Positions 24,729 to 30,003 of a stretch of DNA of 33,291 nt are shown piece by piece. Source of the DNA: Bacillota bacterium (GTDB lineage Bacteria > Bacillota > UBA4882 > UBA8346); contig JAAYHS010000201.1 of assembly GCA_012735315.1 (NCBI GenBank), positions 1 through 33,291 of the forward strand. The letters run 5' to 3'. The notes beneath the pieces are model-generated. The model was not told the DNA's origin and searched no databases. It worked only from the letters and a program-made list of their open reading frames with translations. Position 1 is the stretch's first letter. Each line of letters opens with the position of its first letter. Position numbers and translations under genes: made by a program.

Positions 24729-25364
24729 CTAGAGATCCAAGTCAATCGAAATCCTTACCGCCTCTTTGTCGCCGATTTTACTAAAATCGATCCTGATATC
24801 GAGATCTTTATCTTTGGGGGAGTTGCGCCGGTATTTTTCCTCCCTGGCGTCCCAAGAACCTGACCATTTCCCCCTGTTTCCCTCAATAACCGCGATCGCA
24901 ATTCGCCGCGCTCTTAAAGAATGATGAATGGCATCCAGGTATGATCCAGCCCGATGTAATCGGCACGCTTTTTGCTGATGGGCGACTGCCTGAGCCATTC
25001 CTTTATAGTAATGCCCGCGCTTGGTCGACTGTTGCGCGGCGCTGATTACCTTAGCGGTCCGTTGAATTATGTGGCGGGAGTCGTTTTTCCGTTCTTCCCT
25101 TAACTTACGTTCCCGTTCCCGGCGCTCCTTCTCGCGGCGTTCCTTCTCCTTGCGTTCTTTTTCTTTCCGTTCTTTCTCACGCCGGTCATGATCGCGTTTA
25201 TCCTCTTTTTTATGCTTGGGTCCTTGATCCTTTTTATGTTGCTGGCTAACCATAATCGGCGCCTTCACCGTTTGAACAAACAAACCGTTACCGGCCGCCG
25301 ATGTATTTAACGGAACCGCACCAATCAGACCCGCCATTAAAAAACCGATGATTTTCTTAGTCAT
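24729..25364 (-). CDS. Secreted, highly charged protein of unknown function
   Basis: A 211-residue protein I do not recognise. A signal peptide (TKKIIGFLMAGLIGAVPLNTSAAG) is followed by a His/Lys-rich linker, a long run of Lys/Arg-Glu repeats (about 60-95; KERKEKERREKERRERERK) predicted to be a single charged helix, and a region with several His and Ala (QSTKRGHYYKGMAQAVAHQQ). The C-terminal part has alternating acidic and hydrophobic residues (DLDIRIDFSKIG…VRISIDLDL) that look like beta strands. ATG 25364 is chosen over ATG 25370 because AAAGGGG sits 7 nt from it. The gene is single, with a terminator downstream. Confidence 0.7.
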   Translation of the reverse strand: MTKKIIGFLMAGLIGAVPLNTSAAGNGLFVQTVKAPIMVSQQHKKDQGPKHKKEDKRDHDRREKERKEKERKEKERREKERRERERKLREERKNDSRHIIQRTAKVISAAQQSTKRGHYYKGMAQAVAHQQKACRLHRAGSYLDAIHHSLRARRIAIAVIEGNRGKWSGSWDAREEKYRRNSPKDKDLDIRIDFSKIGDKEAVRISIDLDL

Positions 25365-25455
25365 AACCATGCCCCTTTCTTAACTTTTGATGGTTTGATT
25401 TTAGCTGGAAAGAATGAATTAAAAATAAATTAAAAATTAAGATTTATTAAGAAAA

Positions 25456-26444: not shown

Positions 26445-26749
26445 ACAAAGTACTGACGGCCGTCTTCTTAATGGCGCTGGTCACCTATATCCCGAGGGTT
26501 TTCCCGCTCGCGATTTTTACGCGCAAAATTGAATCCCGCTTTTTTAAGTCATTTTTATACTACATCCCCTTTGCGGTTTTAGGAGCGATGACTTTTCCCA
26601 GCATCCTCGAGGCGACCGCCAATTTTTACAGTTCCTTGGTGGGATTGGTCGTAGCCTTGGTTCTGGCATATTGCGAACAAGGATTGATGAAAGTGGCTAT
26701 GGGAGCGGTATTGGCTGTGTATCTTTGTGAATTATTGATCACTGTTTAA
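26441..26749 (+). CDS. azlD: AzlD family branched-chain amino acid exporter subunit
   Basis: A 102-residue AzlD protein with three to four transmembrane segments: VFLMALVTYIPRVFPLAIF and YYIPFAVLGAMTFPSIL are typical. It works with AzlC. The ATG at 26441 lies in ATGA overlapping the azlC stop and has a strong AAGGAGGAG upstream; the longer frame from 26333 is azlC read out of frame. Its stop overlaps the stop of the convergent repeat/beta-lactamase gene by a few bases. Confidence 0.92.
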   Translation: MNKVLTAVFLMALVTYIPRVFPLAIFTRKIESRFFKSFLYYIPFAVLGAMTFPSILEATANFYSSLVGLVVALVLAYCEQGLMKVAMGAVLAVYLCELLITV

Positions 26750-28593
26750 TTATTGAATAAATCATAATCCGGCCAACTGGGGATGGTTCTCACAATGGCC
26801 CACATTAGGTTGTCAAGATCGGCGCGCATCGCATTTAAACGACCGTCGTCTCTGGAATTGACTAAGACCGCCCAGCCGAACCGGCCGGAAGTACTGACCA
26901 GAATACCGGCGGTTCCGGGTAAATCCCCGTCGTGCCAGTGGTTGCCTAAGGCATTAGTCACCCATCCCTTGGCATAACCTACCGGATCTCCGCTCGGAGT
27001 AACCGCCGTCGTCGGCGTAAACATCGTGGTAATAGAGGCGGGCGACAAAATATCGACTTTCGATGGGAAACCATCGACACGTACCAAGAACCGTAAAAGA
27101 TCTTTGGGAGTGGCGATCCAACCGCCGTGGGCGTCCATCCTCGAAACACGGATCGTATATGGCCCCGGCGTACCTTGAGCATAATATACCACCTCGTTAG
27201 GCCTCCGGGCGGCTAAAGTATCGCCGGCGATCTCCATATTATTGATCCCGCATGGAGTAAGTATTTGTTGTTGAACATAGGTGGCGTAGGGGAGGCCGGA
27301 GACCGCTTCGATAACCCGCCCCAACACACAATAGCCAAAGTTTAGATACTCAAAGGTGGCGCCTGGGACATGGGTCAGAGCTTCGTTATCCAACATCCAG
27401 TCGATCAAGCCGTCCTGATCCAGATCGAAATGACCGAACATCGGATCCTGGGCCGTTGCCCAACCACTGGTATGTTCCAAGAGATTTTGAACGGTTATTT
27501 GGGTAATCCCGGCGCCGTAGGGAGTTGTTCCATACCTTGTCCCTAGAATGTTCCCCGTACCGAAAACTCGATCGCCCAGATTAAGAAGACCCGACTCAAT
27601 TAAGCGGAAAACCGCCGCTGCGGTGATCGGTTTCGAGATACTGGCAATCCGAAACCGGTGATTGATCGTGACCGCCTCATTGGTAGAACGATCGGCAAGG
27701 CCGAAACTTTGGGCAAAGACCAGCCGGCCTTGGTTTGTCAAGGCCAAAGAAGCGCCGGGGATTCGGTAATTAGTCATAAAGGTATTAACCGTATTGTTGA
27801 TAAATGTAAGATCTCCATCAGAAAAATAAGGGTTATGCCAGATGGCGGCAAACCGCGCTTGTCCTTGAAGGGAATAACCGTTGACTTTAACCGGGCGGAA
27901 TCCGCGGTGCAACAAGGCGTCAAACTCCGATTGATATCCGGTTGCCGACAAACCATGTCTGGCCTGCCAGGTAATGGTCGGCCCTTTGAGCCATATCGCC
28001 GCATAGTAGTCTACTCCGCCGACTTCATAACCGCTAACCCGCCATAATGTATAACCTTGATTCACCCAATAATCGAACTGGGATTGATATTCCGCCGCGG
28101 TTAACCCGTGCCGGGCCACCCAGCCTTCGATGGGCGAATTGTCCCAGATTGCGGCGAACCGGGTTTGCCCGGCGACCGTATAACCGCAAATATCAATGGG
28201 ATGAAATCCTTGAGGCGTTAATGCATCATATTCGGCTTGAAGTTCGGCGGCGGTTATTCCATGCCGGGCGATCCAGGCCGCGCCGTTAATCCTTTGCCAA
28301 AGGGACGCGTAATGGGCTGAACCGCCGCTTTCGTATCCGCTGACGATAACCGGCCGGTAACCTTCAACCGTTAAGGTTGAAAAAAGCTGTTGATGTTCGA
28401 TAGCGGTCAAACCATGCCGCGCTTGCCAGTCCGGCCCCGGCGACTGCTCCCAAATGGCGGCGTAGCGTTCGATTCCATTTACGCTGTACCCATTAATATC
28501 AATCAGTCGGTATCCTTGTGCCACCAGTCTGTCAAATTCGGTTTGATACTGAGCGCCCGTAAGTCCGTGACGGGCTTGCCATGCATATGCCAT
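26746..28593 (-). CDS. Five 51-residue tandem repeats plus beta-lactamase-fold serine hydrolase
   Basis: A 615-residue protein. Residues 5-259 are five repeats with exact 51-residue spacing (Trp5, 56, 107, 158, 209): W-x-ARHGLT…YQ…FD…GYR…GY…G…RFAAIW, the bacterial tandem repeat domain 1 type. Residues 260-615 form a beta-lactamase/class C-type hydrolase domain with Ser318-I-S-Lys321 (SxxK), Tyr416-L-Asn418 (YxN) and His554-D-Gly556 (HxG in place of KTG). An inserted DLDQDGLID (390-398) has calcium-loop spacing. There is no signal peptide: ATG 28593 is fixed by AAGGAG 8 nt upstream and the first repeat starts at once. Fungal polyglycine hydrolases have the same domain order; a peptidase role is inference. 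No promoter or other gene is seen in 28594-28962. Confidence 0.9.
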   Translation of the reverse strand: MAYAWQARHGLTGAQYQTEFDRLVAQGYRLIDINGYSVNGIERYAAIWEQSPGPDWQARHGLTAIEHQQLFSTLTVEGYRPVIVSGYESGGSAHYASLWQRINGAAWIARHGITAAELQAEYDALTPQGFHPIDICGYTVAGQTRFAAIWDNSPIEGWVARHGLTAAEYQSQFDYWVNQGYTLWRVSGYEVGGVDYYAAIWLKGPTITWQARHGLSATGYQSEFDALLHRGFRPVKVNGYSLQGQARFAAIWHNPYFSDGDLTFINNTVNTFMTNYRIPGASLALTNQGRLVFAQSFGLADRSTNEAVTINHRFRIASISKPITAAAVFRLIESGLLNLGDRVFGTGNILGTRYGTTPYGAGITQITVQNLLEHTSGWATAQDPMFGHFDLDQDGLIDWMLDNEALTHVPGATFEYLNFGYCVLGRVIEAVSGLPYATYVQQQILTPCGINNMEIAGDTLAARRPNEVVYYAQGTPGPYTIRVSRMDAHGGWIATPKDLLRFLVRVDGFPSKVDILSPASITTMFTPTTAVTPSGDPVGYAKGWVTNALGNHWHDGDLPGTAGILVSTSGRFGWAVLVNSRDDGRLNAMRADLDNLMWAIVRTIPSWPDYDLFNN

Positions 28594-28962
28594 ATCGACA
28601 TCTCCTTTCTTAAAGTTGTCACCCACACTAAAGTCACCAATAACACCAAGCGAAAAAGGTTCTCTTGGCGTCCTTCCTTTTCAACGAACTTTACTCTTGC
28701 CGAAGATTGGAGTACTGCCGGAATATCCAAGGAATAATTTGTATTACCCTATGATTAACGAGATCATTGTGGAACGGGCGGAAAAAACATTGATCTAAGC
28801 GGAATTGATTTTTAGATTGGAGGAAAACGAACGTAGAAAGAAGAATTTACCATTGATTGACTACGATTCAGTAATCCGTGTACGAAACTGCGCCCGGACA
28901 GGTGTTCCTTAAAATCAGGATCACGGCCTGGCGGTCAAATACTTTTTGGAGACTTCCTTTAA

Positions 28963-30003
28963 ATGATGAACCTAAAAAAACTTTTGATAATTCCTTTAGG
29001 TCTGATTACTTTCTTCATTCTTCTAAAAGGCTTTAATACATTGCTTCGCCTGAGTGAAACGCCCGCGCCGTCAAATTTGCCGCAAAAGCCGAGAATACTG
29101 GTTTTTTACGAAGAAGGATGGGGCGGTATTTACGCCGGTTCATGGTCAAGGTTAAACGAAGTTAAGGAAAAAGTGGCGATCGTCAGCCCGGTATGGCTCG
29201 GTCTCAAAGCCGACGGCAGAGTGAACTGGGATAAAACGGACTCCGCTACGGTTAAATTTTTGAAGGAAAATAATCTGCAATTTTTAGTGCTGGTTACGGC
29301 CGGTTCCGGAAAAAACGCTTCCTCGATCCTTACCGATCCGGATTATCATTCGAATGCTTTAAACTCCATTGCCGCTTACCTTCAAAGAGTCGATGCCGCC
29401 GGCGTTTGTCTTGATTTTGAGTATCTTAATCCGGTCTTAAGAGAAGAATTCGTCAAATTTGTGGCTGAACTAAAAGAAAGTTTGGCCGGAAAAAAGCTGT
29501 TTGTGGCCGTTTTCCCCTATGTGGACTGGGCGGAACCCAGTAAAGAAGTATATGATTATCAACGGCTGGGACAAATCTGCGACGGCGTCGTGGTGATGAC
29601 TTACGACCAACACCGGCCGGGAGATCCGCCGGGACCGGTCGCCGCGCTGCCTTGGGTAAACGCTAATTTGAATTATTTCTTAACCCAAATCGATGCCAAA
29701 AAGCTATGGTTGGGAATTGCGGGCTACGGTTACCGCTGGCGGACAGATCAGAAGCGGGCGACGGCTTTACCGGCCTGGTATTGCCGGAAGAAAGCGCTCC
29801 AAAAGGGGAGCGGGGACACCTACCGCCCGGAACAAGGAAATGATTACCTTGAATATTGGGAAGCAGGCGTTCGCCATCAAATCTGGTGGGAAAGCTCACG
29901 AGGAATGAAGGAAAAATTGGAGCTGGCCGCGGAAAATCGCCTGGCCGGTGTCGCTCTGTGGCGTTTGGGATATGAGGAGGAAGAGTTTTGGAATGATCTT
30001 TGA
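28963..30003 (+). CDS. Membrane-anchored glycoside hydrolase family 18-like protein
   Basis: A 346-residue protein with an N-terminal membrane anchor or signal segment (about 5-22) and a GH18 TIM-barrel domain from about 42. The catalytic strand reads VDAAGVCLDFEYLNP with Asp151 and Glu153; in the usual DxxDxDxE motif the middle Asp is Cys149 here, and the acid Glu153 is kept. VVVMTYDQH is the usual MxYD strand, and GVALWRLGYEE the last barrel strand. It is close to spore GH18 enzymes (YaaH/YdhD/SleL type) that act on cortex peptidoglycan, but has no LysM domain. The start is ATG 28963 or 28966, with GGAG about 11 nt upstream. A bidirectional terminator follows. Confidence 0.88.
   Translation: MMNLKKLLIIPLGLITFFILLKGFNTLLRLSETPAPSNLPQKPRILVFYEEGWGGIYAGSWSRLNEVKEKVAIVSPVWLGLKADGRVNWDKTDSATVKFLKENNLQFLVLVTAGSGKNASSILTDPDYHSNALNSIAAYLQRVDAAGVCLDFEYLNPVLREEFVKFVAELKESLAGKKLFVAVFPYVDWAEPSKEVYDYQRLGQICDGVVVMTYDQHRPGDPPGPVAALPWVNANLNYFLTQIDAKKLWLGIAGYGYRWRTDQKRATALPAWYCRKKALQKGSGDTYRPEQGNDYLEYWEAGVRHQIWWESSRGMKEKLELAAENRLAGVALWRLGYEEEEFWNDL

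Follow-up and report, generated by a model that had tools for sequence, protein, structure and literature searches.

A BTRD1-repeat serine hydrolase without a signal peptide in a Bacillota genome

Introduction

Fungal polyglycine hydrolase cuts a plant defense protein. A gene on a contig of a Bacillota bacterium (JAAYHS010000201.1) encodes a protein of the same general plan, with repeats first and a hydrolase domain second. Here we asked what kind of enzyme this is, where in or on the cell it would act, and how the gene came to be in this genome. The stretch analyzed, 33,291 nucleotides in all, is referred to as the window.

26746..28593, minus strand: gene for a two-domain hydrolase of 615 aa, with a BTRD1 array of five repeats ahead of a serine hydrolase domain of the beta-lactamase fold (open reading frame, start, Pfam)
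28591..28611, minus strand: start codon ATG (28593) preceded by the ribosome-binding site AAGAAAGGAG at 28611-28602 (sequence read)
27820..28584, minus strand: BTRD1 array, residues 4-258, made of five repeats of 51 residues, each strand-helix-strand-strand (PF17660, AlphaFold2, periodicity)
26818..27798, minus strand: PF00144 beta-lactamase-fold domain of the peptidase S12 type, with Ser318-x-x-Lys321, Tyr416-x-Asn418 and His554-x-Gly556 (Pfam, motifs, alignment)

Results

The gene, its start and its surroundings

The ATG of the 615-residue reading frame is separated from the upstream AAGAAAGGAG by 8 bases. Residues 1-60 contain no hydrophobic segment of signal grade (maximum 15-residue mean hydropathy 0.25), and the in-frame codons 5' of the ATG bring in no signal peptide either. 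The absence of a signal peptide reported in the first-pass annotation is therefore borne out, and it extends to the nearest homolog, from Streptomyces musisoli. The worry that a wrong start had hidden a secretion signal is not supported here or in S. musisoli, as each of the two genes has its own ribosome-binding site; the Saprospiraceae homologs do carry signals. An out-of-frame reading frame with a hydrophobic stretch (28503-28730, minus strand) overlaps the gene start; we rejected it as a signal, as the stretch is followed by RKE and has no recognizable cleavage site. The protein is probably cytoplasmic, as far as the missing signal indicates, and may instead be exported by a route without a classical signal.

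Upstream and divergent lies a gene for a GH18 protein (28963-30003). Downstream and convergent are genes of AzlC/AzlD type; this name, like that of the SpoVA-type genes elsewhere in the window, is one we assume. The hydrolase gene forms no operon with its neighbors, no sigma-70-like promoter stands out upstream of it, and Rfam found only four tRNAs in the window. Nearby, 24729-25370 (minus strand) encodes a secreted-looking protein of 213 residues with a long Lys/Arg/Glu-rich stretch and no Pfam match.

The repeat array and its predicted fold

Trp5, 56, 107, 158 and 209 are spaced by exactly 51 residues. Identity at a lag of 51 residues is 0.39, above every one of 2000 shuffles (mean 0.064, maximum 0.125), so the periodicity is far beyond chance. 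Pairwise identity between repeats is 35-55% for protein and 48-58% for DNA, and at 12 positions every repeat has the same residue. The repeats had been described as five exact copies of 51 residues; the number and the constant period stand, while "exact" fits the period only and not the diverged copies. The PF17660 (BTRD1) profile search suggested at that time matched all five repeats as five stretches, far above the Pfam cut-off (329.7 bits against 23, E = 1.2e-100). Pfam's title for this family is "Polyglycine hydrolase-like, structural repeat". Repeats 1, 2, 4 and 5 each best match the same-numbered repeat of the S. musisoli protein, and repeat 3 ties, so the five repeats were passed on together as one fixed array. 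Separately, DUF4177 gives matches to BTRD1 arrays, and a stand-alone DUF4177 protein of 64 residues (L010:1438-1632) in turn passes the threshold of the BTRD1 profile; a kinship between the repeat and this small domain is possible.

AlphaFold2 predicted the N-domain as five strand-helix-strand-strand units (pLDDT 92.7). Units of this kind make up the N-domain of the fungal polyglycine hydrolase Fvan-cmp (crystal structure 7tpu; PMC9912923), so that the structural comparison proposed in the first-pass annotation returned the units of the fungal polyglycine hydrolase N-domain. Against the PDB, 7tpu was the sole significant fold match to the N-domain model (E = 3.3e-11), at a modest TM-score of 0.52 by query and a high rmsd of 20, values at which the array in its entirety superposes only loosely. 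For the full-length model, 7tpu was again the best fold match (E = 2.2e-21), and it was also the best PDB chain for a profile of four homologs, through both domains together. The fungal order of repeats followed by a beta-lactamase-like domain is thus supported by the five PF17660 matches, by PF00144 and by the fold match to 7tpu. The accompanying remark that such a protein had not been seen described was too strong, given Pfam's naming of the repeat after polyglycine hydrolase and the statement in PMC9912923 that bacteria account for most proteins with such an N-domain fold. Apart from that paper, the literature search found PF17660 mentioned only in a structure-modeling table. The protein does have the polyglycine-hydrolase-like architecture, but this architecture was on record before, and the window protein is a further example of it, in a rare place and without a signal.

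The hydrolase domain

The C-domain matches PF00144 at 189 bits against a cut-off of 27 (E = 1.6e-55), an assignment that rests on sequence, as AlphaFold2 predicted this domain poorly with so few sequences. The anticipated SxxK, YxN and HxG motifs are present at residues 318, 416 and 554 as SISK (Ser318-Lys321), YLN and HDG, and the alignment shows them kept in all four full-length homologs. A class C beta-lactamase was considered and rejected: the NCBIfam class C models score far below their cut-offs (52.9 bits against 415), which places the protein outside the named beta-lactamase classes, and there is no KxG and so no KTG. When a profile of the domain was compared with the PDB, FLP scored 116 bits, 2qmi 99, the D-peptidase 4y7p 94 and 7tpu 68.5. 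Judged by these profile scores, generic S12 peptidases are closer to the domain than the fungal enzyme is.

Homologs

A scan with exact peptide patterns over one genome from each of 84,980 species, which reaches close relatives only, matched a full-length homolog in S. musisoli, one locus in a Saprospiraceae metagenome-assembled genome (MAG), and, in two Paractinoplanes, proteins that consist of repeats only. The S. musisoli protein (L006) is 65% identical to the window protein, and the two tandem BTRD1-hydrolase genes of the Saprospiraceae MAG (L007:3876-7827) encode homologs at 48% and 45%. All share the two-domain architecture. In S. musisoli, as here, the first repeat begins right at the start of a signal-less protein behind its own ribosome-binding site, whereas both Saprospiraceae copies carry signal peptides. 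A tree of nine rows, which says little on deeper origin, joined the window and S. musisoli proteins at 100/99 and then the Saprospiraceae pair at 95/93.

More distant proteins resemble one domain or the other. Secreted S12 proteins annotated "serine hydrolase domain-containing" in Gemmatirosa, Halocatena, Nonomuraea and Persicobacter have hydrolase domains 33-39% identical to that of the window protein and share its C-terminal tail WPxxDLF, in the form WPxxDL(F), but lack BTRD1 repeats. Conversely, the BTRD1-only proteins of Paractinoplanes, Acaryochloris, Cupriavidus and Nonomuraea have the array, which comprises five repeats in the Acaryochloris and Cupriavidus proteins. Unlike the window protein, they have signals, and their reading frames include no hydrolase domain. 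The Acaryochloris protein is plasmid-encoded (L013:3833-4759) with a probable signal, and four of its five repeats are nearly identical, which indicates that they were probably copied recently. Viral contigs contained no relative of the window protein, by protein or by alignment, and viral structures no significant fold match to the N-domain; in phages there were only weak matches to the hydrolase domain, for example among mycobacteriophage minor tail proteins.

Distribution and transfer

Among 399 genomes sampled from the phylum, 3 match PF17660 at E 0.001. One is the window's own; the match in G400 is a DUF4177 protein and was rejected, and that in G302 is a chance match to what we take to be UvrA. 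A true BTRD1-hydrolase case therefore occurs in 1 of the 399. The window's own genome likewise accounts for the single occurrence among 29 genomes of the class and among 10 of the family; one further genome was sampled from the genus, and it lacks the gene. Another class that was searched yielded one degenerate PF17660 case of different architecture. A 662-residue protein in another phylum genome (L019:1027-3015, minus strand) has about five degenerate BTRD1 repeats after an unassigned N-terminal part, no obvious signal and no relative in 300 sampled genomes; by eye only, the Cys/His pattern of the N-terminal part recalls papain-like or C39 peptidases.

The 65% identity to a Streptomyces protein, taken with the absence from sampled relatives in genus, family and class and the single case in the phylum, points to horizontal spread of the gene between distant bacteria. 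Its GC3 of 0.55 falls within the 0.51-0.63 of the SpoVA-type genes on the same contig, so a transfer in either direction would not be visible as foreign base composition. Misassembly or contamination is an unlikely source, since the gene shares one contig and a similar GC3 with those genes.

Discussion

We think it reasonably likely that the gene has spread horizontally and encodes a serine enzyme of the S12/beta-lactamase fold (a peptidase, amidase or esterase) that is probably cytoplasmic, with a five-unit docking domain and a role outside the sporulation program. With Lys321 and Tyr416 as its activating residues, Ser318 would be the nucleophile on a peptide, amide or ester bond, and water would then resolve the acyl-enzyme formed on Ser318. 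An acyl-enzyme route through Ser, with Lys and Tyr assisting, is the standard one for S12 enzymes, and the motifs together with this family knowledge are what lead us to expect catalysis by the window protein. The five BTRD1 repeats may keep a binding partner, or a substrate of some length, beside the active site, by analogy with the docking proposed for the fungal N-domain, which is itself speculative for a domain without established function (PMC9912923).

Several other readings of activity and location were weighed against this one. The enzyme is unlikely to be, instead of a peptidase, an esterase or acyltransferase like the family VIII carboxylesterases: family VIII esterases and EstG do appear among the fold and sequence matches, but they rank under the peptidases in the profile search, and the sole studied relative with the repeat domain is a protease. 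It is more doubtful still that this is a true bacterial polyglycine hydrolase, whose repeats would dock a Gly-rich protein while the hydrolase cuts its internal Gly-Gly bonds. Domain order, repeat number and topology are those of Fvan-cmp, and four lipoprotein-like proteins encoded in the same genome (L024, L026, L028 and L029) have runs of 6-7 glycines straight after the lipobox cysteine. These proteins look exported, however, and the window protein has no signal; moreover, its motif 3 differs from that of Fvan-cmp, and FLP, 2qmi and 4y7p all fit the domain profile better than 7tpu. A secreted enzyme with a lost or misread signal, to which the upstream hydrophobic stretch in another frame (LFRLVLLVTLVWVTTL) would be joined by frameshift, would agree with the clear Sec or Tat signals on the Saprospiraceae homologs and the BTRD1-only proteins. 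We consider it highly improbable in view of the well-placed ribosome-binding site before the ATG, the RKE and missing cleavage site after the stretch, and the equally signal-less S. musisoli protein with its own ribosome-binding site.

The first-pass annotation had also linked the protein to sporulation, as a mother-cell or spore peptidase. SpoVA-type genes do lie in the same window, and one sigma-K-like -10 (CATAGGGTA, 28753-28745, minus strand) is found about 150 bp upstream of the gene. Sigma-K-like motifs are nevertheless at chance in the window (11 found, 10.4 expected), as is the count of sigma-E-like motifs, and the gene stands outside any operon and is missing from sampled relatives. 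The nearest homologs, in Streptomyces and Saprospiraceae, belong to bacteria without endospores. The link is thus unsupported, and membership of the sporulation program is very unlikely.

Returning to the docking-domain hydrolase, it is possible, though we lean against it, that in the signal-less clade of this spore-former and a Streptomyces a formerly secreted peptidase with a docking domain came to work in the cytoplasm, on an intracellular target new for S12 enzymes. With its well-conserved repeats and no signal, the bacterial version could in any case be a handy protein for finding the ligand of the BTRD1 N-domain; otherwise, this is an ordinary case of a rare, horizontally spread accessory hydrolase.

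Comparison with fungal polyglycine hydrolases

In Fvan-cmp, as in the window protein, an N-domain of five strand-helix-strand-strand units precedes a hydrolase of the beta-lactamase fold, and the two have the catalytic Ser and the motif-2 Tyr in common. Domain order is therefore shared with the polyglycine hydrolases, while the closest C-domain, motif 3 and secretion are not. The fungal C-domain is only distantly similar to the hydrolase domain described here, and motif 3 is RDG in Fvan-cmp (Arg563-Asp564 in the numbering of PMC9912923) and HDG in the window protein. The fungal enzymes are secreted and glycosylated, whereas the window protein starts without a signal. Finally, the repeats of the fungal enzymes show little sequence conservation, in contrast to the 35-55% identity among the five repeats of the window protein.
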